Positions 315-18,285 of a stretch of 64,000 bases of DNA are shown piece by piece (position 1 is the stretch's first letter; the number at the start of each line of letters is the position of its first letter). The notes under the pieces are model-generated. The model was not told the DNA's origin. It saw only the letters and a program-made list of their open reading frames with translations, and did no database searches. The DNA comes from Actinomycetota bacterium (GTDB lineage Bacteria; Actinomycetota; Nitriliruptoria; Nitriliruptorales; Nitriliruptoraceae), in the NCBI GenBank assembly GCA_019347575.1, contig JAHWKY010000013.1, positions 1 through 64,000 on the forward strand, given 5' to 3'. The translations under genes were made by a program, and so were the position numbers.

Positions 315-445
315 GATACCCTCCGCATCATACCCGCGTCAAGCTCGGTGGGTGGCCCTTCTCGGCCCGGACGGTTTCGTAGGGTGGGGCCTGCGGGGCC
401 GGGCCCTTGCCCGCGCCGGAAGCGACCGGGGAGAATGGCCGGACG

Positions 446-1198
446 ATGCACGGGACCGTCGACTACGGACTCGCCAGGCGCGCGGTGCTGCAGCGCTTCC
501 GCGCCGGCCGCCTCTCCCGCTCCCTCCGGCTGGCCGGACTCATCGCCACCGTCGCCGAGCGCGGGCTCGACGGGACCGTCGTCTTCGCCGGCTACCGCGA
601 GGACGCACCGCGCGTTGCGGGCGCGTTCGACGTGTTCGTGCTTCCGTCGATCCACGAGGGGCTCCCCATCGCGTTGCTCGAGGGAATGGTGTGGGGGACG
701 CCCGCGGTCGTGACCCGCGTCGGGGGGAACGCCGAGGTCGTGGACGACGGTGTCACCACAACCGGCATCGCCCACCTGTCCCAAGGACGGTGGTCGTGGA
801 AGTCCGCCGACATCCCTCCCGTCGACCTCAACACCGCCACCTTGGAAGTGCTGGACACGCTACCGGGGGTTGGTCCCGTCACCGGTCAGGCCATTCTCGA
901 CTGGCGGGCCGAGCACGGTGTGTTCAGCAGCGTCGACGAGCTGCTCGAGGTGGACCCCGACAAGGTCGCCTCGGCCGCGCTCGCGGAGCACGGGTCCACC
1001 GCCCCCGACGCGGTCAAGCAGCTGCGTGAGGTGCTCGAGGAGACCCGCGCGTGGGCCGACGAGAACGGGATGCCGCACGGTCGCGGCATCCTGGCTCGGA
1101 CCGCGGTGGTCCTCGAGGGCATCACCGATGAGGTGCCGACCGCGACGCCGCCAGACGACGAGCGGTCGGCGGAGCAGGTCGAGAGCGCCCCGGAGTAG
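446..1198 (+). pseudogene. Chimeric open frame: DUF5318 N-end + GT4 C-end + ComEA HhH pieces
   Basis: One uninterrupted frame joins segments from unrelated families. Bases 446-520 encode MHGTVDYGLARRAVLQRFRA, the usual beginning of actinobacterial DUF5318 proteins, in the expected place beside PadR. Bases 521-751 match the C-terminal half of GT4 glycosyltransferases (VVFAGYRED, DVFVLPSIHEGLPIALLEG, TRVGGNAEVVDDG) with no N-terminal acceptor domain. Bases 821-952 give a ComEA-like helix-hairpin-helix (VDLNTATLEVLDTLPGVG, then AILDWRAEHGVFSSVDELL). The tail to 1198 is unrecognised. None of the pieces is complete, so a working enzyme is unlikely. It is either recombination debris or an assembly join. 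Confidence 0.6.
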
Positions 1199-2804: not shown

Positions 2805-3566
2805 TCAGCCGCCGACGCGCGCGGCGACGGCGCGGCGGACACGGTCGGCGAGCAGGGTCCCCATCCCGAGCGCGTCGAGCAGCTGGGTGGGATCGTCGAG
2901 GTCGTCCACGGTGGTGTGCATCGCGACCGCGCCCTTCTGCAGCAGGTACAGGCGGTGTGCGAGCCGGATCGCGAACGTCACGTTCTGCTCCACCAGCAGC
3001 ACCGCGGTCCCCGCATCGTTCACCTGACGCAGCACCTCGGTCAGGTCCGCCACCGCGGTCGGTGCGAGTCCCTGCGACGGCTCGTCCACGATCAACAGCT
3101 TCGGATCGCTCATCAGCGCCCGCCCCGCGGCGAGCATCGCCCGCTCGCCGCCGGACATCGTCCCGGCGCGCTGGTCCATCCGTTCCTGCAACCTCGGGAA
3201 CACGTCGAGGACGCGGTCGAGGTTGGCCGCGTAGCGGTCCTTGTCCGCGACGGTCGCCCCGCCGAGACGGAGGTTCTGCTCGACCGTGAGGTTGGGGAAC
3301 ACACGGCTGCCCTGGGGCACGTGGGCGAGCCCGGCTCGGACCCGGTCCTCGGGCTGCAGGTGGCTGATGTCGTCGCCGTCGAGGAACACCGATCCGCGCC
3401 AGATCTCCACGAGCCCCGAGACGCAGTTCAGCGTCACGGACTTGCCCGCCCCGTTGAGTCCGAGGATGGCGACGAACTCCCCGTGATCGACGTCGAACTC
3501 GACCCCGTGCAGGACGGGATGCGATCCGAACCCCGTGTACAGGTCGCGTACCTCCAGCAGAGCCAT
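2805..3566 (-). CDS. livF: Branched-chain amino acid-type ABC ATPase LivF
   Basis: A 253-residue ABC ATPase of the LivF type. The Walker A motif GLNGAGKS is at residues 36-43, the signature reads TMSGGERAMLA, and Walker B is LLIVDEPSQGLAP with the downstream LVEQN switch histidine replaced by the LivF-typical Gln/Asn context. It powers import by the HAAT-type transporter encoded next to it. The ATG at 3566 shares its A with the stop codon of the livM-livG gene (TGATG), so translation is probably coupled. It is the last gene of a three-gene operon read leftward. Confidence 0.93.
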   Translation of the reverse strand: MALLEVRDLYTGFGSHPVLHGVEFDVDHGEFVAILGLNGAGKSVTLNCVSGLVEIWRGSVFLDGDDISHLQPEDRVRAGLAHVPQGSRVFPNLTVEQNLRLGGATVADKDRYAANLDRVLDVFPRLQERMDQRAGTMSGGERAMLAAGRALMSDPKLLIVDEPSQGLAPTAVADLTEVLRQVNDAGTAVLLVEQNVTFAIRLAHRLYLLQKGAVAMHTTVDDLDDPTQLLDALGMGTLLADRVRRAVAARVGG

Positions 3567-5521
3567 CACGCCACCTCCGTCGTCTCGGCTGCGGCTTCCT
3601 CGCCGAGGTAGGCCCCGACCACGGCCGGCGAGGCGAGGACCCGCTCGGTCGGGCCCCAGGTCAGCGTGCGGCCCTGGTGCAGCACGTAGGTCGCGTCGCA
3701 GACGTCCTGCACGATGGGCAGGTGGTGCTCGATGAGCAGCACGGTGCGCCCGAGGGTGTCGCGGATCGCGGCGAGCCGTTCCGCCAGGGACTCCGCGGCG
3801 GCAGGTGCCATCCCCGCCGACGGCTCGTCGAGCAGCAGCAGTTCGGGGCCGGTGACGAGGGCGCATCCCAACTCGACGATGCGCTTCTGGCCGTGTGACA
3901 GGTCTGCCACGCGTTTGTGGGCGACGTCGCCGAAGCCGAGCGCCTCGACCGCCTCGTCGGCGCGCTCGCGCATCTGCACCTCGATGGCCTTCACGTGCCC
4001 GCCACCCACGATGGCGTCGAGGTCGCCGTACGTGGCCAGTGGCTGCTGGGCGAGCAGGAAGTTGTCGAGCACAGTCTGGTCCTGCACCAGTCCCAGCAGC
4101 TGGAAGGTGCGGCCGATGCCCAACCGCGTCCGCGTGTGCGGGGCGAGGTAGGTGATGTCGCGACCGCGGAACCAGATGTGGCCGGCGTCGGGCTCGAGGA
4201 AGCCCGAGATGATGTTGAACAGCGTCGACTTGCCCGCGCCGTTGGGACCTATCAGGCCGGTGACCGTCCCGGCCCTGACATCGAGATCCACCCCCTGCAG
4301 CACGTGCAGTCCACCGAAGGACCGTTCGACGTCGCGGACCGAGAGCAGCACCTCGCCGGGGGGTGTCGCGCCCCGGCCGTGCAGGGCGATGTCGGGCACC
4401 TTCGGGACCGATGCGCCAGCGACCGTGGCGACATCGATCGCGGCGTCCTCCTCCGCCGACTCGCCGGCGAGACGTCGCCGCAGCTCGCGTTCAGCCTTCT
4501 CCTCGCGGGCCTGACGCAGACCCTGGATGATCCCCCCGGGGTTGCGTGCCACCGTGAATATCAGCAGCACCGACCCGAGGATGGGCGCCCACGCCTCCAA
4601 CCGCAGCGATGCCAGCGACGACGGCAGGATGCGGGTGAGTATCACGAAGAGGATGGCGGCCACGACCGCGCCGACCCGCGAGCCCAGCCCGCCGACCACG
4701 ACGATGATGACGAACAGCAAGGAGAGATCGAAGCTGAACTCGGTGGACTGGAAGCTGCCGATGGCGCCCGCGAACACAGCGCCGCCCATGCCGGCGAAGG
4801 CGCCCGACAGGACGAAGGCGATCAGCTTCGTGCGGGTCACGTCGACGCCGTAGCTGGCTGCGACCTCCTCGTCCTCCTTGACGGCGTGGAACGCGCGGCC
4901 GAGACGCGAACCGGCGATCTGGCGGTCGAGGATCCAGACGAGGGCCAGCACGAGCCCGGCGTAGACGTAGTAGTCGGCGTGCTCGGCCAGCCACGGGTGC
5001 CGCTCGTGCACCGCTCCGGATGCTGCGCCGGTGAGCCACGGCTGCTGGAACACGAACCCCTGGATGCCCACGCCCGCCGCGAGCGTGGCGATGGCGAGGA
5101 GCAGTCCGCGGAGGCGCACCGCCGGGAGACCGACGACGAACGTGACCAGGGCGCCGATGGCGGCGGCGAAGAGCAGGTCGAGCGGCTGTGGCAGGTCCCA
5201 TCGCCCCGTGACCGTCGCCGCGGAATACGCCCCGACGCCCAGGAACGCCGCGTGGCCGAGCGAGATCTGACCCGAGTAGCCCATCAACAGGTTGAGGCTC
5301 AGAGCCACCGTGGCGAAGGCGAGTCCGATGGCGAGGTTCAGGGCGCGTGCCGTCGGCATCAGATCGGGTGCGACCCGCGCGAGGATAGGCACGATCGCGA
5401 TGAGGAGCACGACGATCGCCGCGCGGATGATGGGATCACCGCCACGGGAGGGCGAACTCGCCGCCTGGGTCGAGGCACGGTCGTCGAACGGCAACTCGAG
5501 GACCTCGGTGTCGTTGCTCAC
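3566..5521 (-). CDS. Fused LivM permease-LivG ATPase
   Basis: One 651-residue protein combines two subunits that are usually separate. Residues about 30-330 form the LivM permease with many membrane helices and the family motif LNLLMGYSGQISLGHAAFLG. A charged linker (about 335-385) leads to a LivG ATPase with Walker A GPNGAGKST, signature LSHGQKRIVELG, Walker B LLLLDEPSAGMAP and the switch LLIEHH. The GTG start at 5521 overlaps the livH stop by four bases. Such fusions occur in actinobacteria. The substrate is not given by these parts; the linked acyl-activating genes hint at an organic acid or lipid-derived acid rather than an amino acid. Confidence 0.9.
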   Translation of the reverse strand: MSNDTEVLELPFDDRASTQAASSPSRGGDPIIRAAIVVLLIAIVPILARVAPDLMPTARALNLAIGLAFATVALSLNLLMGYSGQISLGHAAFLGVGAYSAATVTGRWDLPQPLDLLFAAAIGALVTFVVGLPAVRLRGLLLAIATLAAGVGIQGFVFQQPWLTGAASGAVHERHPWLAEHADYYVYAGLVLALVWILDRQIAGSRLGRAFHAVKEDEEVAASYGVDVTRTKLIAFVLSGAFAGMGGAVFAGAIGSFQSTEFSFDLSLLFVIIVVVGGLGSRVGAVVAAILFVILTRILPSSLASLRLEAWAPILGSVLLIFTVARNPGGIIQGLRQAREEKAERELRRRLAGESAEEDAAIDVATVAGASVPKVPDIALHGRGATPPGEVLLSVRDVERSFGGLHVLQGVDLDVRAGTVTGLIGPNGAGKSTLFNIISGFLEPDAGHIWFRGRDITYLAPHTRTRLGIGRTFQLLGLVQDQTVLDNFLLAQQPLATYGDLDAIVGGGHVKAIEVQMRERADEAVEALGFGDVAHKRVADLSHGQKRIVELGCALVTGPELLLLDEPSAGMAPAAAESLAERLAAIRDTLGRTVLLIEHHLPIVQDVCDATYVLHQGRTLTWGPTERVLASPAVVGAYLGEEAAAETTEVA

Positions 5522-6411
5522 GCCGCTGCCTCCTTCCCCATCATGCCTCGGGGCCGCAGCACCAGGACCGCGAGCACGAGCAGCATGAGCACGAACTCCG
5601 CGAGGCCGGGCGGTGTGCGATCGACGAAGGGGAGCGTGTCGGCCTGCCGGATCGCGGCTTCGATCAAGCCGACGCTCACGCCGCCGATCACGGCGCCGGG
5701 CAGGCTGGTCAGTCCACCGAGCAAGGCCGCGGCGAGGCCGCGGACGAACCACGTCGTCATCGTGAACGGCTGGAACTGGGGGATGGCGCTGATGGTGAGG
5801 ATCCCCGCCAGCGCCCCGAGTGCGAAGGCCGACGTCCACGTGAACGCGCTGATGCGTGACAGGCGCACACCCATCAGCCGCAGCGTCGAGGGATCCTCCG
5901 CGGCAGCGAGCATGCCCAGACCCAGCGTCGTGCGGCGGAGCAACAGCCACAGGGCGATGGCCAACATCGCGGCCGCGGCCAGGGCGAGCACCTGGACCGC
6001 GCTGATGACGACGCCGGCCACCGTGATGCTGCCGTCGACGAGGTCGGGCGGGAAGCGTGGACTCACCCGCCAGAACACGATGGGGAGGAACCCCATGATG
6101 GACATCAACCCCAGCGTGGCGACCGTCAGCGACAAGCGCGGCCCGTCGAGCATCGGGCGCACGACGAAGCGTTCGAACACCAGTCCGACCACGATCAGGG
6201 CGGCGATCCCGAACACCGCGGTCGCCCATCCCGGTAGCCCCGTCGTATCGTGCAGCCACCACGACAGGTACATCGCGAAGGTGCCGGCCTCGGCCTGAGC
6301 GAAGTTGAGCACCCGCGTCGTCTGGTACACGAGCACCAGGCCGATCGCGAGGAGCGCGTAGATGGCGCCGCTGGACAGACCCAGCACGACGATCTCCCCG
6401 AGCGTGCGCAC
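5518..6411 (-). CDS. livH: Branched-chain amino acid-type permease LivH
   Basis: A 297-residue integral membrane protein of the LivH family, with about eight hydrophobic segments, the N-terminal LGLSSGAIYALLAIGLVLVY and the family loop VLNFAQAEAGTFAMY. The late segment GLAAALLGGLTSLPGAVIGG is the EAA-like coupling region that contacts the ATPases. It pairs with the LivM half of the fused neighbour to form the channel. It is the first gene of the leftward operon, 111 bases from the divergent binding-protein gene. Confidence 0.93.
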   Translation of the reverse strand: MRTLGEIVVLGLSSGAIYALLAIGLVLVYQTTRVLNFAQAEAGTFAMYLSWWLHDTTGLPGWATAVFGIAALIVVGLVFERFVVRPMLDGPRLSLTVATLGLMSIMGFLPIVFWRVSPRFPPDLVDGSITVAGVVISAVQVLALAAAAMLAIALWLLLRRTTLGLGMLAAAEDPSTLRLMGVRLSRISAFTWTSAFALGALAGILTISAIPQFQPFTMTTWFVRGLAAALLGGLTSLPGAVIGGVSVGLIEAAIRQADTLPFVDRTPPGLAEFVLMLLVLAVLVLRPRGMMGKEAAA

Positions 6412-6442: not shown

Positions 6443-6472
6443 TTGACACCTGACAGGTGATTCAGGTTACAT
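6443..6472 (+). promoter_or_regulatory. Divergent promoter with CACCTG-A-CAGGTG operator
   Basis: The 111-base gap between livH and the binding-protein gene contains TTGACA (6443-6448) and, 18 bases on, TTACAT (6467-6472), a plausible sigma-70-type pair reading right. A perfect inverted repeat CACCTGACAGGTG (6447-6459) sits inside this promoter, overlapping the -35 box. Its size and place suit a dimeric regulator; the TetR protein encoded at 12579-13256 in the same operon is the obvious candidate. This would control importer and operon together. Confidence 0.55.
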
Positions 6473-6522: not shown

Positions 6523-8070
6523 ATGGCCGCGCAGCGCTACGAGCGACTGCTCGCGATCGTCACCTCGTTCCTGCTGATCGTCGGCGTCGCCGCGGTCGCC
6601 GAGGGCGAGATCGGCGCGCGTGACTTCACACCCGAGATCGACGACGTCGCCGCGCCCGCGACCGAGGGGCCTGCCGACGTCGGCAGCGAGGGCCCGGTCG
6701 ACACGCCGTCCGAAGCCGCGAGCCCGAGCCCCGCACCCGCTGGCGTGTCCTCGCCCGGTCCCACCACGAGGAGGTCGCCCGCCACCACCAGCGGCCCCGA
6801 CCCCCAGCCCACGACCGCCACGGCCGGTGAGCAGCCGACGACGCAGCCGTCGAGCCAGCCCACGCCGACGCCCACCACGCAACCACCGCCACCGCCGCCG
6901 AGCCCCACCCCTCAGTGGCCGTCCTCGGGTCTCTACAGCGCCGACGAGGCACGGATCGGCATCACCGACACGACGCTCCGGCTCTGCATGCACGCGGCGT
7001 TCCTCCTCGGGCCGGTGTTCGACAACCGCCCCGAGGACGAGGACGTGTACTGGCGCTGGCTGAACGACCAGGGCGGCGTGCACGGCCGCCAGGTCGAGAT
7101 CACCTTCACCGACGACCAGTACACGGCCGCCGGAGCGGCGCAGGCGGCGGCGGAGTGCGACGACCGCGATCCGTTCCTCATGCTCGGCGGCGTCGGCTTC
7201 GATCAGACGCCGACCGTGCGCAACTACGCCGAGACGCACGGCATCCCTTACGTGCACACGATGGCGGTGGAGGCCGACCCGGCGAAGCTCGACCACAGCC
7301 ACACCGGCTCGCCGACGATCGAGCAGGTGGGCCGCTTCGTCGCGCAGCGGGTCGCAGCCAAGCACCCCAACAAGCGCATCGGCGTGATCTGGGTCAACTC
7401 CGAGAACTGGAAGGCTGGCCGCGACTCGTTCCTCGACGAGCTGGAGCGACTCGGCAAGGCCGACAACGTCACCTACGACCAGGACATCCCGAACAACAAC
7501 GAGCAGTTCACGCCCTACATCATCGACATGCGCGACAAGGTCGACGTGCTGTACTTCCACGCCAACGCGCTCGCCATGGCGCGCTTCTTCAACGAGGCCG
7601 ACCAGCAGGGCTTCTACCCGCACGTGATCGGCGAGGACGGCTTCAACCTCGTGACCGACACCGCGGGTCAGGCGATGCGCGAGTTCCCCTCGGCCGAGGT
7701 GGTCTGGATCACGCCCGCGTACGACCCCTCCGACACCTCCACGCCGTACTACGACGAGGTCCAGCGGATGCAGCAGGCGTACGCTCAGTACCGGCCCCGC
7801 AAGACACCCAACGATGTCGACTGGATGTTCTGGCTCGCGTTCAAGCAGATCCACCGGATGCTCGAGGACTGCGGGCGCCAGTGCGACCGCAACATCCTCA
7901 CCGGCATGATCCAGAGCGGCTACTCGGCCACCGTCGATCCGATGTGCAACGTCGACTTCAGCCGTGGAGGCGGGCACTTCGGCGGCCACCTCGTCAACCT
8001 CTACAGCTCGGTGCCGAAGGGCGACACGTCCGTCTGGAAGCAGTCCGCGACCTGCGTCAGCAGGTTCTGA
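6523..8070 (+). CDS. Substrate-binding protein of the liv-type importer
   Basis: A 515-residue exported binding protein of the Peripla_BP_6 (LivJ-like) fold. Residues about 9-27 are a hydrophobic signal or anchor segment (LLAIVTSFLLIVGVAAVA) without a lipobox cysteine. Residues about 45-135 are a Pro/Thr/Ser-rich linker of the wall-spanning kind. The ligand-binding domain follows, with GVFDNRPEDEDVY-like and LMLGGVGFDQTPTVRNYAE segments and several cysteines near the end. The ATG at 6523 was chosen because GGGGAGG precedes it and the signal segment then starts correctly. It is the first gene of a coupled operon divergent from its membrane subunits. Confidence 0.85.
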   Translation: MAAQRYERLLAIVTSFLLIVGVAAVAEGEIGARDFTPEIDDVAAPATEGPADVGSEGPVDTPSEAASPSPAPAGVSSPGPTTRRSPATTSGPDPQPTTATAGEQPTTQPSSQPTPTPTTQPPPPPPSPTPQWPSSGLYSADEARIGITDTTLRLCMHAAFLLGPVFDNRPEDEDVYWRWLNDQGGVHGRQVEITFTDDQYTAAGAAQAAAECDDRDPFLMLGGVGFDQTPTVRNYAETHGIPYVHTMAVEADPAKLDHSHTGSPTIEQVGRFVAQRVAAKHPNKRIGVIWVNSENWKAGRDSFLDELERLGKADNVTYDQDIPNNNEQFTPYIIDMRDKVDVLYFHANALAMARFFNEADQQGFYPHVIGEDGFNLVTDTAGQAMREFPSAEVVWITPAYDPSDTSTPYYDEVQRMQQAYAQYRPRKTPNDVDWMFWLAFKQIHRMLEDCGRQCDRNILTGMIQSGYSATVDPMCNVDFSRGGGHFGGHLVNLYSSVPKGDTSVWKQSATCVSRF

Positions 8071-8071
8071 G

Positions 8072-9151
8072 GTGCACCGCGTCCGGATCGCAGCGGTGAC
8101 GGCCGCGGCTGCCGTCGGGCTGCTCGTCCCTGGCGTGACGCACGCCGACCACGTCCCGGGGCACGGAGCGCCCAACCAGGGGCCCGCACCGAACGAGTTC
8201 GCGGACGACTTCGAGCCGCCCCTCGACGCCGAACAGGGCTACCCCATCGGCGGCTTCGGAGGCCTCGACCGTGGCGCTCCGACCGAGCGCCTACCGGTGA
8301 TCCTCGTCCACGGCAACACCGAGACTCACGACTTCTGGCAGCGGTCCGAGAGCCCACCCACGATCGTCAACGTGCGCCAGCGCCTGCTGGATGCGGGCTA
8401 CTCCGAGCAGGACGTCTGGGCGCTCAGCTACGACGGCGCCGCGGGCTGCTCCACGACCGGTTGCGGGACCGCGAACGACGTCAACGTCCCCGACCTCGCG
8501 GCCTTCCTCGACGCGGTGCTCGACTACACCGGGGCTCCTGGGTTCGACATCGTGGCCCACTCGCTCGGGGTGACCGTGACGCGCAAGACGCTGCAACAGC
8601 GCCCCGACCTGTTCGCGAAGGCCGACGACCTCGTGCTCATCGCGGGCGCCAACCACGGCACGAGCGTGTGCCGCGGCATCGAGGACACGTGGTGGGGGTG
8701 CGACGAGATCGCGCCCGGCACCGCGTGGCTCGACGAGCTCAACGGTGACGACGAGACCCCCGACGGACCGACGTACACGACCATCTACGACGGCAGTGGC
8801 GTCGCCGACCAGTTCTACGTCAACGGCGGAGCGTTCGACGACAGCCAGAGCCCACGCCTCGAAGGTGCCGAGAACATCCAGCTCCCCGGCACCGCCCACA
8901 ACACGCTCGCACGGGGAGAGGAACCGTTCGGCATCTACCTGCCGATCCTCCAGAGCGACGAGCTGGAGCCGACGCGGCGTGGTGGCCCGCCACCGCACGC
9001 TGGGCCGCCGCCGCGCGTCGAGCCCCCGCCGCGGGCCGGACCGTCCGACGCGACGCCTTCCGCCGCGGACCTTCCCACGACCGGGGCGGGGCTCACGACC
9101 GCAACCATCGCGCTGCCGCTGGTGGCGATCAGGAGGCGTCGCCGTGGGTGA
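8072..9151 (+). CDS. Secreted lipase-like hydrolase with LPXTG wall anchor
   Basis: A 359-residue exported alpha/beta-hydrolase. An N-terminal signal peptide (about 1-26, ending near THADH) is followed by the oxyanion motif VILVHGNTETHDFW and the nucleophile elbow AHSLG with Ser164, then GANHGT as in actinobacterial lipases. The C-terminus has a proline-rich spacer, the sortase signal LPTTG at residues 334-338, a hydrophobic segment and an Arg-rich tail. It should therefore be covalently attached to the wall by a class of sortase encoded elsewhere. The GTG start lies one base after the binding-protein stop. It probably releases acids or alcohols outside the cell for the adjacent importer; the true ester is unknown. 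Confidence 0.82.
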   Translation: MHRVRIAAVTAAAAVGLLVPGVTHADHVPGHGAPNQGPAPNEFADDFEPPLDAEQGYPIGGFGGLDRGAPTERLPVILVHGNTETHDFWQRSESPPTIVNVRQRLLDAGYSEQDVWALSYDGAAGCSTTGCGTANDVNVPDLAAFLDAVLDYTGAPGFDIVAHSLGVTVTRKTLQQRPDLFAKADDLVLIAGANHGTSVCRGIEDTWWGCDEIAPGTAWLDELNGDDETPDGPTYTTIYDGSGVADQFYVNGGAFDDSQSPRLEGAENIQLPGTAHNTLARGEEPFGIYLPILQSDELEPTRRGGPPPHAGPPPRVEPPPRAGPSDATPSAADLPTTGAGLTTATIALPLVAIRRRRRG

Positions 9152-10013
9152 TGTGCACTTCGTCGACAACGAGGGGGTGCGCATCGCCTACGAGGTCGAC
9201 GGAGCCTCCGGCCCCTGGCTCGTGCTCCAGCACGGCCTCGGCTACGACCGGCGGGACTGGGGCGTGATCCTCGAGCCGCTCATGGCCGCCTGTCGCGTGG
9301 TGCGTCTCGACACGCGCGGCATGGGCGACAGTGACGCGCCCACGATGCCGTGGACCGTCGGTGACATGGCGGACGACCTGCGTGCGGTCCTCGACGACGC
9401 GGACATCGACCGCGCGACCATCGTCGGGACCAGCCTCGGTGGTGCCGTGGTGCAGGAGTTCGCGTGCCGCCACCCCGAACGCGTCGAGCGGCTGATCCTC
9501 ACGGCGCCGCTGATCGCCGATCGAGCGCTGTACCCCGAGTCCGCGGTGTCGCGGACCACGGACCATGCGCTGGTCGACGGCCGCGCCGGGCTCTGTGCGC
9601 TCCTCGCCGGTGCCGACCCCGCCGAGGTCATCGATCCCGACCAGGTGCGTCGCAACGTCGCCGCCGCGCTGTCACCGGCCACCGTGCGCGAGCGCCCCGA
9701 ACTCGTCGACCGGATCGTCGCGCACCGCGCTGCCAAGCCGTTCACCCCAGCCGGATGGATGGGTCAGGACTTCGCGGGCAGCGGGTACCGCTACACCGCG
9801 CAGTTGCACGACTTCGACGTCCCGATCCTCGTGATCCAGGGCACCGACGACCGCGTCGTCAACCCGGCGGTGGCGGACGTGCTCGAGGAGCGGTGGCCCG
9901 ACGCCCACGTCGTTCGTCTCGACGGGCGCGGTCACCTGCCGCACTGGGAGGACCCTGACCGGATGGCGTCGTTGCTGACGACCTGGGCGGTGTCGGGGGA
10001 GGTCGCGTCGTGA
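9144..10013 (+). CDS. Alpha/beta-hydrolase (OleB- or esterase-like)
   Basis: A 289-residue cytosolic alpha/beta-hydrolase with the oxyanion segment LVLQHGLGYDRRDW, nucleophile motif GTSLGG (Ser97), the acid in QGTDDRVVNP and the histidine in GRGHLPHW. The GTG start at 9144 is set by AGGAGG seven bases upstream and overlaps the previous gene by eight bases. It lacks a signal peptide. Homologues include esterases, lactonases and 3-oxoadipate enol-lactonase-like proteins. Next to a ligase, an SDR and a thiolase-fold enzyme it could correspond to OleB, but OleB normally has an Asp nucleophile of the haloalkane dehalogenase type, so a serine hydrolase role is more likely. Confidence 0.8.
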   Translation: MGDVHFVDNEGVRIAYEVDGASGPWLVLQHGLGYDRRDWGVILEPLMAACRVVRLDTRGMGDSDAPTMPWTVGDMADDLRAVLDDADIDRATIVGTSLGGAVVQEFACRHPERVERLILTAPLIADRALYPESAVSRTTDHALVDGRAGLCALLAGADPAEVIDPDQVRRNVAAALSPATVRERPELVDRIVAHRAAKPFTPAGWMGQDFAGSGYRYTAQLHDFDVPILVIQGTDDRVVNPAVADVLEERWPDAHVVRLDGRGHLPHWEDPDRMASLLTTWAVSGEVAS

Positions 10014-10135
10014 CTGACCGACTCACCCCCCAGGCCGGCAACGCCGGCCCCTCCCCCCTCCAGGGGGGAGGCGCGACTGACCGACTCACCGCCCAGGCCG
10101 GCAACGCCGGCCCCTCCCCCCTCCAGGGGGGAGGC
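10012..10135 (+). repeat. Family-B double-hairpin repeat, two tandem copies before the ligase gene
   Basis: Two 63-base tandem units (10012-10074, 10075-10135 with truncated end) each contain GGCCGGC-AAC-GCCGGCC, a perfect 7-bp hairpin, followed by a second perfect stem whose 3' arm AGGGGGGAGG would act as or mask a ribosome-binding site. The last copy ends one base before the ATG at 10136. A third copy sits in the same position before the larA-like gene (28181-28224). The unit length is a multiple of three, so a GTG at 10010 would read through both copies in frame. Confidence 0.8.
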
Positions 10136-11647
10136 ATGGCTGAACTCCACACCGTCGGACGCATGCTCCGTCACCGCGCACGCACGACCCCGGCGCGCAC
10201 CGCGATCGACTTCGACGGTGTCGCCACGACCTACCGCGAACTCGACGAGCGCTCCGAGCGGCTCGCAGCCGGGCTGCTCGACCGGGGCTTGACCCGCGGG
10301 GACCGCGTCGCGACGCTGACGACCAACAGCCCCGAGCACGTCGTGGTGTTCTGGGCCTGCGCCAAGGCGGGGCTGATCCTGCTCCCGCTCAACTGGCGGC
10401 TGACCGCTCCCGAGCTTGCGTACCAGCTCGACGACGCCGAGCCGCAGCTGCTCCTGGTCCAGCCTCGGCACGAGGAGCTGGCCGCGCAGGCGCTCGCTGG
10501 GGAGAGGGCCGATCCGCGCGTGCTCGAGCTCTCGGCCAGCGGACTGGAGCGGCTCGCGGTCACCGGTGATGTGCTCGGGGCGGAGGTCGCCGACGACGAC
10601 GGGCTGCTGCTGATCTACACGTCCGGCACGACCGGCAAGCCCAAGGGCGCGCTGCTCACCCACGCGAACACGTTCTGGACCAACCTCAGCCTCGACCTGA
10701 CCGCCCCGCTGCGCTACGACGACGTCGTGCTCCAGATCCTCCCGCAGTTCCACGTCGGAGGGTGGAACGTCCAGGCGGTCCAGGCGTGGTGGAAGGGTGC
10801 GACGGTCGTGCTCGAGGAGGGCTTCGACGCCGCGCGCGTCCTCGACCTGATCGGCCGTGAGCGCATCACCGCGATGATGGGCGTCCCCGCGAACTACCTC
10901 TTCCTCGCCGAGCATCCAGCGTTCGCTGATGCCGACCTGACGTCGCTGCGTCTGGCGATCGTGGGTGGTGCCCCGATGCCGGAGGCGCTCCTGCGAACCT
11001 GGCAGGAACGCGGCGTCGCCATCGCGCAGGGCTACGGACTGACCGAAGCGGCACCCAACGTCCTGTGCCTGCCACCGGAGGACGCGACGAGCCGGATCGG
11101 GTTCGCAGGCAAGCCCTACCTGCACGTCGAGGTGGCGTTGCGCGACGTCGCGACGGGACGGCTGCTCCTCGGTCCCGGGGAGGGCGAGGTCCTGGTCCGT
11201 GGACCTAACGTCTTCGCGGGGTACTGGCGCGACGCGGAGGCGACGGGTGCCGCCCTCGTCGATGGCTGGCTCGTCACCGGCGACATCGCGCAACGCGACG
11301 CGGAGGGCTTCTACCGCATCTGCGACCGTACGAAGGACATGCTGATCTCGGGCGGCGAGAACGTCTACCCCGCGGAGGTCGAGTCGGTCCTGCACGAGCA
11401 CGACGCCGTCGTCGAGGCGGCGGTCATCGGCGTGCCCGACGACCGGTGGGGCGAGGTCGGGCTCGCCGTCGTGGTCCTGCGTCGCGATGTCACTGAGGAC
11501 GAGCTGCTCAGCCACTGTCGGGAACGGCTGGCGGCGTACAAGGTCCCCAAGCACGTACGCGTCGTCGACGCGCTCCCGCGGTCCTCGATGGACAAGGTGC
11601 GCAAGGACGAGCTGCGTGAGCGCTACGCCCCGGAGGTTGCGACGTGA
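10136..11647 (+). CDS. AMP-forming acyl-CoA ligase-like enzyme
   Basis: A 503-residue ANL-superfamily adenylating enzyme. It has the P-loop LLIYTSGTTGKPKGALL, the QGYGLTEAAP motif, the TGD motif (WLVTGDIAQRD), the hinge region CDRTKDMLISGGENVYP and the C-terminal catalytic lysine in SSMDKVRKDELR. It should activate a carboxylic acid with ATP and CoA. The start is uncertain: ATG 10136 gives a normal N-terminus, while GTG 10010 overlaps the previous stop in the GTGA manner seen throughout this operon and would add 42 repeat-encoded residues (TDRLT, QAGNAGPSPLQGGG twice). An OleC-type beta-lactone synthetase is related, but the motifs look like an ordinary fatty acyl-CoA ligase. Confidence 0.85.
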   Translation: MAELHTVGRMLRHRARTTPARTAIDFDGVATTYRELDERSERLAAGLLDRGLTRGDRVATLTTNSPEHVVVFWACAKAGLILLPLNWRLTAPELAYQLDDAEPQLLLVQPRHEELAAQALAGERADPRVLELSASGLERLAVTGDVLGAEVADDDGLLLIYTSGTTGKPKGALLTHANTFWTNLSLDLTAPLRYDDVVLQILPQFHVGGWNVQAVQAWWKGATVVLEEGFDAARVLDLIGRERITAMMGVPANYLFLAEHPAFADADLTSLRLAIVGGAPMPEALLRTWQERGVAIAQGYGLTEAAPNVLCLPPEDATSRIGFAGKPYLHVEVALRDVATGRLLLGPGEGEVLVRGPNVFAGYWRDAEATGAALVDGWLVTGDIAQRDAEGFYRICDRTKDMLISGGENVYPAEVESVLHEHDAVVEAAVIGVPDDRWGEVGLAVVVLRRDVTEDELLSHCRERLAAYKVPKHVRVVDALPRSSMDKVRKDELRERYAPEVAT

Positions 11648-12582
11648 CTGCACTCGTGACCGGTGCCGCCGGCTTCCTCGGTCGCGCCCTCGTCCGCCGG
11701 CTGCGCGAGGACGACCGTCAGGTCGTGGCGTTCGACGTCGCTACTGGCGTGCACGAGCTGGCGGAGATCGGAGCGACCACGGAGCAGGGCGACCTCGGCC
11801 GCTGGAACGATCTGCTGGACGTCGTGACCGCCTACGGCCCCGAGGTGGTCTTCCACTGCGGGGCGCTGCTGTCCGCAGCCGCCGAGGCGGATCCCACCGC
11901 CGCGTACGAGGCCAACGCGACCGGCACCCACAACCTGCTCGAGATCGCGAGGACCGTCGGCATCGATCGCATCGTGTTCACCTCCACGATGGCCACGTTC
12001 GGCCGCGGCGCGGGCGACCCCGTGGCCGACGACGCACCGCAGTGGCCCACGACGATCTACGGCGCCACGAAGGTCTTCGGGGAGCGGCTGGTCGAGTACC
12101 ACCACCTCCGCTACGGCACCGATGTGCGTGCGCTGCGGTTCCCGTCGATCGTCGGAACGGGGCGTGGAGGCAGCGGGGCGAGCGGCTACTCGAGCATGGT
12201 GTTCGACGCGGCCGCCCACGGGGCGCCGTACCAGCTCTACGTCGGACCCGACACGCGTTGCCAGCTCCTGCACGTCGACGACGCGGTCGCGGCGCTGCTG
12301 GCCCTCGCTGAGGCTGCGCCCGAGCGGCTGTCGCGCCGGATCTACAACATCGGCGGCATCGCCCCCACGGCGCAGGAACTGGTCGAGGCCATCCGCCGCG
12401 TCCTGCCCGAGGCCCGCCTCGGCTACGAACCCGATCCCGAGCTCGAGGCGATCGTGGGCTCGTGGCCGCTGCGCCTCGACGACCGCAACGCGCACCGGGA
12501 CTGGGGCTGGAAGCTGGGTCTCGATCTCGACGGCATCGTCGCGCGGTTCGTCGCCGACGCTCGGACCGAGGTGGCACCGTGA
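11644..12582 (+). CDS. Extended SDR (NAD-dependent epimerase/dehydratase family)
   Basis: A 312-residue Rossmann enzyme with the dinucleotide motif TGAAGFLG at residues 7-14, the acidic end of strand 2 (VVAFDVATG) and the active-site pair YGATK. The size and the RFPSIVG segment suit the sugar epimerase/threonine dehydrogenase-like or 3-beta-hydroxysteroid dehydrogenase-like branch. The GTG overlaps the ligase stop by four bases. OleD of olefin and beta-lactone pathways is an extended SDR of similar type, so reduction of a 3-oxo acyl intermediate is a possible role. The substrate cannot be read from the sequence. Confidence 0.8.
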   Translation: MTALVTGAAGFLGRALVRRLREDDRQVVAFDVATGVHELAEIGATTEQGDLGRWNDLLDVVTAYGPEVVFHCGALLSAAAEADPTAAYEANATGTHNLLEIARTVGIDRIVFTSTMATFGRGAGDPVADDAPQWPTTIYGATKVFGERLVEYHHLRYGTDVRALRFPSIVGTGRGGSGASGYSSMVFDAAAHGAPYQLYVGPDTRCQLLHVDDAVAALLALAEAAPERLSRRIYNIGGIAPTAQELVEAIRRVLPEARLGYEPDPELEAIVGSWPLRLDDRNAHRDWGWKLGLDLDGIVARFVADARTEVAP

Positions 12583-13256
12583 CCGCAGCCGAGTTCCCGA
12601 CGTCGGAGCACGGACCGTCCCACACCGGCGTGGACGGCAAGCAGCTCACGAGCCGCGGCGAGGCCACGAGGCACCGGGTGCTCGAGGCCGCGGAGTCCGT
12701 GTTCGCCGATCTGGGCTACCACGAGGCGTCGATCGTGAAGATCACCGAAGCCGCGGGCGTCGCCCAGGGCACCTTCTACCTGTACTTCGAGAGCAAGCAG
12801 CAGGTCTTCGACGAGCTCGTGGTCGATCTGAACCGGCGCGTCCGCCACGCCATGACGGAGGGGTCGCGGGGCGCATCGTCCCGGGCCGAGGCCGAGCGCC
12901 TGGGGTTCCGTGCGTTCTTCCGCTTCACCGCCGAGCACCCGGCCCTGTACCGGGTCATCCGCCAGGCCGAGTTCGTCTCCCCCCGAGCGCTCCACTACCA
13001 CTACAGCCGCATCGCTGCGGGCTACATCGCCAACCTGCGCGGCGCGATGGACGCGGGCGAGATCGCGGAGGCCGATCCCGAGGCGCTGGCGTGGGCACTC
13101 ATGGGGGTCGGAGAGCTCATCGGCATGCGCTGGATCCTGTGGAACGCTCTCGCTGGCGGCGACGCTCCATCCCCCGATCCGTCGGATCCCGTCCCTGACG
13201 AGGTGCTCGACACGATCTTCGAGTTCATCAGCCGTGGTCTGGGAGCCGGATCGTGA
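12579..13256 (+). CDS. TetR-family regulator
   Basis: A 225-residue TetR-type protein. An N-terminal tail of about 25 residues precedes the DNA-binding domain (RHRVLEAAESVFADLGYHEAS, then KITEAAGVAQGTFYLYFESK with the recognition helix at about residues 55-65). The C-terminal ligand domain (about 85-220) is typical of acyl-CoA-responsive regulators. It is encoded inside the operon with GTGA overlaps on both sides and probably controls it through the palindrome at 6447-6459. Which ligand releases it is unknown. Confidence 0.88.
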   Translation: MTAAEFPTSEHGPSHTGVDGKQLTSRGEATRHRVLEAAESVFADLGYHEASIVKITEAAGVAQGTFYLYFESKQQVFDELVVDLNRRVRHAMTEGSRGASSRAEAERLGFRAFFRFTAEHPALYRVIRQAEFVSPRALHYHYSRIAAGYIANLRGAMDAGEIAEADPEALAWALMGVGELIGMRWILWNALAGGDAPSPDPSDPVPDEVLDTIFEFISRGLGAGS

Positions 13257-14269
13257 CGCGCGTCGGCATCACGGCGATCGCCCACCACCTGCCCGAGCGC
13301 TGGATGCCGGCCAGCGAGCTCGCCGAGCTGAGCGGCATCCCCGAGCGTGTCCTGATCGACAAGTTCGGGCTCCGTGGCAAGCACATCGCGGCCGCGGACG
13401 AGCACGTCTCCGATCTCGCGGTCGCAGCCGGGCGGGCGCTGTTCGAGGAGCACGTCGTCGATCCGGCGAGCGTGGACGCCGTCGTGTACTTCGGCTCGAC
13501 GTGGAAGGACCATCCCGTCTGGCACGCGGCACCCCACATCGCCCACCGCCTCGGCTGCACGCGCGCGTTCGCGCTCGAGCTCGACTACGTCTCGTGCGGC
13601 ACGCCCGTGGCGCTGCGCGTCTGTCGCGACCTGCTGCGAGCCGAGGACGACATCGAGACCGTGCTGGCCGTCGCGGCGTGTCGCGAGTCGGCACTGCTCG
13701 ACTACCGCAACGAGCGCGCACGGTTCATGTTCAACTTCGCCGACGGGGCCGTGGCGTCGCTGCTGTCCAAGGACGCGTCGCGCAACGAGCTCCTCGGTTG
13801 CCACATGATCACCGACGGATCGTTCTCCCTCGACGTCAAGGTCCCGGCCGGTGGCAGCGTCGAGCCAGCCAGTCACGCCTCGGTGGCCGCACACCGCCAC
13901 AGCCTCGACGTCGCGGAAACCGCGTCGATGAAGGAGCGTCTCGACCCGGTCACGCTGCCCAACTTCGTCGCCGCGGCGGAGGGCGCCCTCAAGCGCTCCG
14001 GTGCCACGCTCGAGGACGTCGGCTACGTCTGTGGCATCCACATGAAGCGGTCGATGCACCAGGACCTGCTGGATGCGCTGGGGGTGCCCCCCCAACGAGC
14101 CGCCTACCTCGACGACACCGGGCACATGAGCGGTGTCGATCCGCTGCTCGCACTCGACCGAGCCGTGCGTGCTGGCGACGTCGTCGATGGTGATCTCGTG
14201 CTGCTGATCGCTGCGGGCACCGGGTACACCTGGGCGGCATCAGTGGTCCGCTGGGGCGCCGCGGTGTGA
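13253..14269 (+). CDS. Ketoacyl synthase III-like (thiolase-fold) enzyme
   Basis: A 338-residue thiolase-superfamily protein of the KAS III group. The nucleophilic cysteine lies in LDYVSCGTPVAL (about residue 118) and the first active-site histidine in VCGIHMKRSMHQ (about residue 262). At the position where FabH and OleA have the third residue, Asn in GNTS, this protein has TGHMSG, a histidine. The protein therefore has a Cys-His-His set rather than Cys-His-Asn. It is the last gene of the operon. Condensation of an acyl-CoA, or the reverse cleavage, are both possible; the linked ligase, SDR and hydrolase make acyl-CoA chemistry likely. Confidence 0.78.
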   Translation: MTRVGITAIAHHLPERWMPASELAELSGIPERVLIDKFGLRGKHIAAADEHVSDLAVAAGRALFEEHVVDPASVDAVVYFGSTWKDHPVWHAAPHIAHRLGCTRAFALELDYVSCGTPVALRVCRDLLRAEDDIETVLAVAACRESALLDYRNERARFMFNFADGAVASLLSKDASRNELLGCHMITDGSFSLDVKVPAGGSVEPASHASVAAHRHSLDVAETASMKERLDPVTLPNFVAAAEGALKRSGATLEDVGYVCGIHMKRSMHQDLLDALGVPPQRAAYLDDTGHMSGVDPLLALDRAVRAGDVVDGDLVLLIAAGTGYTWAASVVRWGAAV

Positions 14270-17373: not shown

Positions 17374-18285
17374 TCAGCCGAGCTCGATGCCCAGCGTCGT
17401 CACGATCTGGCCAGTCTGCTCCATGACGCCGCTGAGCTCCTTGCCGGCCGAGATGTCGGCGATGTCGGCGTAACGCTCGGCGATCTCTTCGATGCTGGGC
17501 ACCTTCTCGAACCCAACGCCCTGCCCCTCGACCAAGGCGACGCGGGAGTAGTAGCCACCGCCTGCGGAGAAGATGCGGCCCGTCTCGGTGTTCGTTTCCG
17601 ACACCAGGTACGCCACCAGCGGGGAGACCCACTCGGGCTCGAGCTTGTCGAGCAGCTGTGGCGGCATCACGTCCTCGGTCATCCGCGACCTCGCCACCGG
17701 CGCGATCGCGTTGGCCAGGATGTTGTACTTGGCGCCCTCGATGGCCAGCGTCCGCGTGAGCCCGACCAGGCCCATCTTCGCGGCGGAGTAGTTGGTCTGG
17801 CCGAAGTTGCCGTACAGGCCTGACCCTGACGTGGTGTTGATGATGCGGCCGTAGTTGTTCTCGCGCATCGACTCCCACGCGGCGCGCGTCACGTGGAAGC
17901 CGCCGTAGAGGTGCACCTTGAGGACCATGTCGAGCTGATCCTCTTCGAGGTTCTTGAACGACACGTCGCGCAGGATCCCGGCGTTGTTGATGACGATGTC
18001 GACCCGACCCCAGGTGTCCAGGGCGGTCCTGACGATGTTCTCACCACCCTCCCAGGTGTGTACCCCGTCGTAGTTGGCGACCGCCTCGCCGCCGGCCTCG
18101 TTGATCTCGTCCACGACGGCGTCGGCCATGTCGGAGCCGAAGCCTTTCCCGTGGCGGTCACCTCCGAGGTCGTTGACGATGACCTTCGCGCCGCGGCTCG
18201 CGAGCAGCAGTGCGTGACTCCTGCCGAGCCCGCCCCCGGCCCCCGTCACGATCGCGATCCGACCCTCGTAGTTGATCTCCGCCAC
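17374..18285 (-). CDS. SDR dehydrogenase, 3-hydroxyacyl-CoA dehydrogenase-like
   Basis: A 303-residue classical SDR. It has the cofactor loop TGAGGGLGRSHALLLA, NNAG at about residue 100, and the catalytic Ser/Tyr/Lys in TTSGSGLYGN and NYSAAK. The extended insert GGDRHGKGFGSDMADAVVDE and the segment after the active site are typical of the hydroxyacyl-CoA dehydrogenase domain of peroxisomal multifunctional enzyme 2. It probably oxidises a 3-hydroxyacyl-CoA or a steroid-like substrate. No MaoC hydratase partner is adjacent. It is transcribed leftward, away from the PLP enzyme. Confidence 0.82.
   Translation of the reverse strand: MAEINYEGRIAIVTGAGGGLGRSHALLLASRGAKVIVNDLGGDRHGKGFGSDMADAVVDEINEAGGEAVANYDGVHTWEGGENIVRTALDTWGRVDIVINNAGILRDVSFKNLEEDQLDMVLKVHLYGGFHVTRAAWESMRENNYGRIINTTSGSGLYGNFGQTNYSAAKMGLVGLTRTLAIEGAKYNILANAIAPVARSRMTEDVMPPQLLDKLEPEWVSPLVAYLVSETNTETGRIFSAGGGYYSRVALVEGQGVGFEKVPSIEEIAERYADIADISAGKELSGVMEQTGQIVTTLGIELG

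Follow-up and report, generated by a model that had tools for sequence, protein, structure and literature searches.

An importer-linked acyl-CoA ligase cassette with a serine-type KAS-fold protein and a predicted TetR operator in a Nitriliruptoraceae genome

We examined a putative operon in a window of 64,000 nucleotides (contig JAHWKY010000013.1, positions 1 to 64,000) from an assembly of the family Nitriliruptoraceae, Actinomycetota (GCA_019347575.1; 4.9 Mb in 120 contigs). Seven open reading frames (ORFs) occupy the + strand at 6523-14269 and encode, in order, a substrate-binding protein (SBP), a secreted lipase (LIP), a cytosolic hydrolase (HYD), an AMP-forming acyl-CoA ligase (LIG), an extended short-chain dehydrogenase/reductase (SDR), a TetR regulator and a protein of KAS-III fold (KAS), the last present as a single copy in the genome (table 1). 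Pfam and NCBIfam profile matches bear out both their existence and the general protein types given in a first-pass annotation of the sequence. The operon is divergent from the - strand importer genes livH, a livM/livG fusion and livF (2805-6411), which lie outside 6523-14269; with SBP, two permease domains and two ATPase domains, the HAAT (LivFGHMK-type) importer is complete. The LivM-LivG fusion is also open in five relative loci (L104, L106, L108, L109, and L110). SBP has an N-terminal hydrophobic segment and, after it, about 100 residues rich in Pro, Thr and Ser (within 6523-6940); it has no evident lipobox, and the Pro/Thr/Ser-rich stretch resembles a wall-spanning tether. The one-base gaps or overlaps first described between the + strand genes hold at five junctions (+1, -8, -4, -4, and -4 bases), the HYD/LIG junction being the exception. 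There a GTG at 10010 overlaps the HYD stop, and ligase homologues place the start at ATG 10136; since this start comes after two 63-bp tandem copies, the junction is probably a gap of 122 bases. The copies (10014-10135), which lie between HYD and LIG and come with an inverted repeat, could add 42 residues to the LIG N terminus or insulate the junction.

Table 1. Features of the operon, its importer and associated loci (window positions unless a locus is named)
Feature	Position	Strand	Basis
LivF-type ABC ATPase of HAAT importer	2805..3578	-	PF00005; TIGR03410 214.7 bits; LivF NF008626 203.6 bits
LivM permease fused to LivG ATPase, one ORF	3566..5629 (start approximate)	-	BPD_transp_2 126 bits and ABC_tran 117 bits within a single open frame
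LivH-type permease, divergent from operon	5518..6411	-	PF02653 103.7 bits
Predicted TetR operator TGAATCACCTGTCAGGTG, 18 bp	6447..6464	-	In 111-bp divergent promoter region; position weight matrix
HAAT substrate-binding protein (SBP)	6523..8070	+	PF13458 (Peripla_BP_6) 91.5 bits; homologues with LIP in other genera
Secreted class-2 lipase (LIP)	8072..9151	+	PF01674 63.6 bits (gathering score 20.3); AHSLG nucleophile motif; LPTTG wall-sorting end
Cytosolic alpha/beta hydrolase (HYD)	9144..10013	+	PF00561 110 bits; PcaD-like 128-131 bits; Ser nucleophile GTSLGG
Two near-identical 63-bp GC-rich tandem copies	10014..10135	+	Sequence; in frame, between HYD and probable LIG start
AMP-forming acyl-CoA ligase (LIG), PRK06187/PRK06839 type, not OleC	10136..11647	+	NF004837 482 bits (cut-off 476)
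Extended SDR, L-threonine-3-dehydrogenase-like	11644..12582	+	Best PDB match 186 bits
TetR regulator, predicted operator binder	12579..13256	+	PF00440 51.5 bits
KAS-III-fold protein (KAS)	13253..14269	+	NF005308 415 bits (cut-off 315); Ser114-His291-Asp296
Classical SDR (MFE-2/FabG type)	17374..18285	-	Homologues adjoin KAS in L100 (61% to window SDR) and L102
Second LPXTG class-2 lipase	L111 8797-9990 (source genome G000, contig C19)		Operator 22 bp before start

Much of this arrangement recurs elsewhere. We compared 80 relatives of the KAS locus, mostly 62-72% identical in Actinomycetota and 43-49% in Bacillota, with one metagenome-assembled genome (MAG) of Chloroflexota. In the loci with full context (n = 56), LIG lies near KAS in 56/56, TetR in 54/56, a binding protein in 48/56, Liv ATPases in 46/56 and MaoC in 37/56, matches to the hydrolase and classical-SDR queries being less specific. 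As read from these neighbourhoods, the recurring cassette is a HAAT importer, an acyl-CoA ligase, TetR, a serine-type KAS and hydrolases, found in Actinomycetota, Bacillota and the one Chloroflexota MAG. The importer of the window was considered as an ortholog of the widespread one and rejected: its SBP has no match among 150 relatives at 1e-10, and its Liv subunits share only about 26-48% identity with that importer, versus 38-58% with importers linked to LIP. In other families of the phylum, this second importer lineage accompanies LIP and enzymes of the same kind. L106 (genome G085) holds importer, SBP, TetR, HYD, KAS, LIG and LIP in a single cluster; L108 combines LIG, LIP, importer and SBP, and KAS lies at the end of a separate contig (L107); L104, L109 and L110 retain parts of the set. 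The lipase-importer linkage is thus seen in other genera, the whole set in one. Because two different importer types accompany one enzyme core, these neighbourhoods argue for a true functional link between import and the KAS/LIG-core enzymes. Several Bacilli clusters (L039, L044, and others) also carry a second KAS with Cys-His-Asp, a BTAD/MalT-like regulator of about 1084 residues or a secreted NHL beta-propeller.

The two SDRs differ in their distribution. The extended SDR has no counterpart in the relative loci compared and, on that comparison, is an addition specific to the source lineage. In two relatives of the same family, homologues of the classical SDR come immediately after KAS; in the window the gene is 3 kb off and inverted, probably as a displaced partner of KAS.

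KAS is a member of the NCBIfam family NF005308 (PRK06840), scoring above its curated cut-off, and Bacilli and actinobacterial orthologs have the same neighbourhood. The model name, "3-oxoacyl-ACP synthase", suggests a ketosynthase of fatty acid synthesis; its primary members instead have Ser at the nucleophile position and an importer nearby. The column of the FabH nucleophile Cys is Ser in 82/82 primary family members aligned, His291 is invariant and stands where FabH and OleA have Asn, and His263 and Asp296 are invariant too; the Ser-His-Asp triad is found in all 41 KAS rows of our tree. Cys115 was ruled out as the nucleophile: relatives have S/C/H/A/M/Y in its column, whereas Ser114 never varies. 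An AlphaFold2 model made with aligned input (pLDDT 94.9) matches KAS-III folds, BioZ and FabH first and DpsC 50th. DpsC, the priming ketosynthase/acyltransferase of the daunorubicin polyketide synthase (PKS), likewise lacks a Cys nucleophile: its triad is given as S118-H297-D302 in a review (PMC12664062), and these residues align to the columns of Ser114, His291 and Asp296. A different publication gives Ser-His-His for DpsC (PMC9573744), and both of those histidines are also present in the window KAS. The similarity to DpsC is only 63 bits, however, and KAS lies beside an importer, a CoA ligase and hydrolases, with no PKS or acyl carrier protein (ACP). From these residues we infer that KAS works via an acyl-Ser intermediate, with transfer, hydrolysis or retro-Claisen cleavage as possible next steps.

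Such a triad is also what a biosynthetic cassette might use, in which KAS, like CerJ, ChlB3 and DpsC, would pass the acyl group supplied by the CoA ligase on to a small molecule or a carrier and so yield a modified metabolite. The residues are those of the acyltransferase branch, Ser-His-Asp here and, in the second KAS of Bacilli clusters, Cys-His-Asp as in CerJ and ChlB3 (PMC9573744, PMC12664062). Yet a phmmer search with AcpP found no ACP gene in the KAS loci, there is no PKS gene among identified neighbours, the constant companion is an importer and not an exporter, and the regulon described below includes crotonase and MaoC. On balance we regard this cassette as quite unlikely to be biosynthetic.

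A different pathway had been proposed from the superfamily types of four adjacent genes, which the window operon has in common with the OleABCD olefin/beta-lactone pathway and which the first-pass annotation read as OleB, OleC, OleD and OleA in the order B-C-D-A. In a variant Ole pathway, KAS would act as OleA, the extended SDR as OleD, LIG as OleC (beta-lactone synthetase) and HYD as OleB, turning imported acyl groups into a beta-lactone or an olefin. The four matching superfamilies do adjoin, and the SDR has a weak, partial match to the OleD model NF042422 (68 bits over residues 1-128 only, cut-off 580). Genuine OleA-bearing loci of Ole type in other actinobacterial genomes (L125, L127, L130, and L131) served as positive controls. 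Against the OleA model NF006720 the window KAS scores 22 bits (cut-off 285), whereas the OleA of L125, whose genome belongs to the same class, scores 423 bits, with OleC (528 bits, NF006754) and OleD alongside. Ser114, His291 and Asp296 occupy columns where OleA, whose own residues are Cys-His-Asn, has Cys, Asn and Gly/Ala/Ser. In a 62-protein tree, five OleA sequences make up a clade of their own (100/100) that is separated from the window KAS family (99/95); in a tree of 63 ligases, the OleC pair falls outside all other ligases (100/100), and the 25 best models for LIG do not include NF006754. OleB has an Asp nucleophile of the haloalkane-dehalogenase type; that of HYD is Ser, a comparison made without an OleB control sequence. 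An OleA mutant with Ser in place of the active-site Cys lacks p-nitrophenyl ester hydrolysis (PMC7064751), which also argues against a variant Ole pathway. With the Ole subfamilies excluded, a Ser nucleophile in HYD and an SDR that relatives lack, the B-C-D-A order is an accident of the source lineage; in the survey of gene order it was not conserved, and what recurs is the core of importer, LIG, TetR, KAS and hydrolase. The operon thus differs from OleABCD in subfamilies, active sites and order, with no homology as a pathway, and the acyl-condensing route of Ole type is refuted; we find even a variant of it scarcely credible.

LIG has other affinities. Its nearest solved relatives are feruloyl-CoA synthetase (PDB 8weu/8wev, 396 bits, the best PDB match) and FadD13 (3r44, 338 bits), and all three share a larger group (99/94) within which LIG sits in a separate clade of neighbourhood orthologs (100/100).

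The 111-bp divergent region between importer and operon contains CACCTGACAGGTG, and within it lies the predicted operator. TetR orthologs beside KAS are 56-70% identical, with a conserved recognition-helix region. About 18 actinobacterial and Chloroflexota loci with enough upstream contig carry related sites, such as TGAATCACCTCTCAGGT, ahead of the first gene; the predicted consensus is TGAATCACCT(C/G)TCA. The actinobacterial site was found by a palindrome search and a position weight matrix whose training set omitted the window and L106. The window operator is the top site for this matrix in 64 kb (23.8, versus at most 18.0 in 20 Markov nulls), and that of L106 is the top site in its 19 kb (18.5). 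A blind count of 9-mers upstream of Bacilli tetR genes gave the same sequence independently: it stands directly before tetR in 47 of 48 TetR-bearing Bacilli loci, against a background of two other sites in 1.05 Mb and one for the reversed pattern, and most whole genomes have a single exact site. In genome G004, the site, lying upstream of SBP on another contig, led to the detached front portion of the operon. A scan for sigma-70 promoters found nothing; by eye, TTGACA-18-TTACAT overlaps the operator. Operator-like sites at G000:C6:144501, G206:C19 and G214:C54 have unrelated genes as neighbours and were taken as chance.

Two further sites extend the putative regulon. In the source genome the next-best site, with one mismatch, precedes a paralogous LPXTG lipase on another contig (table 1). 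That lipase adjoins a cluster of TetR, ligase, acyl-CoA dehydrogenase, SDR and thiolase genes. In Nocardioides flavus (L204), a second site lies before a crotonase-NHL propeller-ligase-MaoC-MaoC operon that has an MFS permease gene as its neighbour; this operon is likely a second unit of the regulon, and the crotonase and MaoC genes point to acyl-CoA catabolism.

The AHSLG motif of LIP was read from an alignment of homologues, and its C terminus combines LPTTG with a short hydrophobic stretch and a basic tail, RRRRRG; with four sortase genes in the genome, this fits a sortase-anchored wall protein, as first claimed for this hydrolase. Its nearest solved relatives, the polyhydroxybutyrate depolymerase PhaZ7 and Bacillus LipA, share the PF01674 match and the nucleophile motif but not the additional LPXTG anchor, and identity as a PhaZ7 polyhydroxyalkanoate depolymerase was ruled out (63 bits with NF050060, cut-off 450). 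A lactone rather than an ester is the substrate in a scheme akin to quorum quenching, modeled on the qsd operon of Rhodococcus erythropolis, which comprises QsdR (TetR), QsdA (lactonase) and QsdC (acyl-CoA ligase) (PMC6262395). There, as in the window, a TetR, an ester or lactone hydrolase and an acyl-CoA ligase deal with an external acylated compound; an extracellular or cytosolic lactonase would open a lactone or signal molecule, the acid would be imported and CoA-activated, and TetR would sense the lactone. The best NCBIfam match of TetR, below cut-off, is the butyrolactone-receptor type ScbR (54.9 bits), HYD is enol-lactonase (PcaD)-like, and NHL/SGL propeller proteins stand in for LIP in other clusters. 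Every one of these family scores is below cut-off, however; QsdA is a phosphotriesterase-like lactonase, a hydrolase class absent from the window cluster, and qsd has nothing that corresponds to the HAAT importer or to KAS. We therefore think scavenging of a lactone or signal molecule in the manner of qsd unlikely.

Overall, we consider it probable that the system, derepressed through TetR, scavenges an ester or lactone from outside the cell, with CoA activation as the next step. Under this model of scavenging, the wall-anchored lipase would cleave an ester (or a lactone or oligoester) outside the cell, and the membrane-tethered SBP with LivH, LivM-LivG and LivF would take up the freed carboxylic acid. 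HYD would then remove a leftover ester or lactone bond, and LIG would make the acyl-CoA. The SDRs may adjust a hydroxy or keto group, while MaoC and crotonase in other lineages would process a 3-hydroxy or 2-enoyl function. In KAS, His291-Asp296 would activate Ser114 to accept the acyl group, and KAS would pass it to CoA or another acceptor, or perform a thiolase-like cleavage of a 3-oxoacyl-CoA. TetR, probably a sensor of acyl-CoA or another ligand, would repress the operon, the divergent importer and the second lipase via the shared operator. Scavenging of an extracellular lipid ester was one of two routes first suggested for these genes; it gains support from the repeated linkage of importer, secreted lipase and CoA-ligase/KAS core in other lineages, and further from one predicted operator standing before importer, operon and second lipase. 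The sequence itself shows which genes are present, how they are linked across many genomes, the operator-like motif and the Ser-His-Asp residues; the catabolic direction, the substrate class, the binding of TetR and the reaction of KAS we infer.

Several observations weigh against the scavenging model. The cluster has no acyl-CoA dehydrogenase or ordinary thiolase, so that full beta-oxidation is not encoded, and KAS-fold enzymes usually build bonds. LIP is missing from most loci of the KAS family. HAAT binding proteins do not predict their substrate, and no PDB entry matches the window SBP. The pairing of TetR with the operator is deduced from position only, and DpsC sits on a very long branch of the KAS tree, leaving its kinship with KAS unsure.

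Elsewhere in the window, an ORF at 407-1198 (+) joins a C-terminal piece of a family 4 glycosyltransferase to a ComEA-like HHH motif, possibly by rearrangement or an assembly join.

Taken singly, the parts of the cassette are of known kinds; what is new is that they occur together with a Ser-type KAS and with an operator that two phyla share. In the open-licence literature we found no paper for NF005308/PRK06840 and nothing relevant on the operator sequence or the gene combination, in line with the earlier remark that a system with this combination is not known to have been described; the core with its serine-type KAS and DNA switch seems undescribed so far. The comparison also does away with a false Ole cluster. 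We advance one wider idea tentatively, as a possibility we hold with considerable doubt: within the thiolase fold, the NF005308 family may form a catabolic branch, working through an acyl-serine (Ser-His-Asp) with no carrier protein, that cleaves or transfers imported acyl-CoA within a TetR regulon whose single operator sequence is kept across Actinomycetota and Bacillota. A family annotated as "3-oxoacyl-ACP synthase" probably lacks Cys-based condensation, stands outside fatty acid synthesis and belongs to a regulon of import and CoA activation. The near-unique operator offers a direct handle, with one TetR, one DNA site and a handful of targets per genome, and, as culturable Bacillus-like strains carry the regulon, its ligand and pathway are within reach of ordinary genetics.

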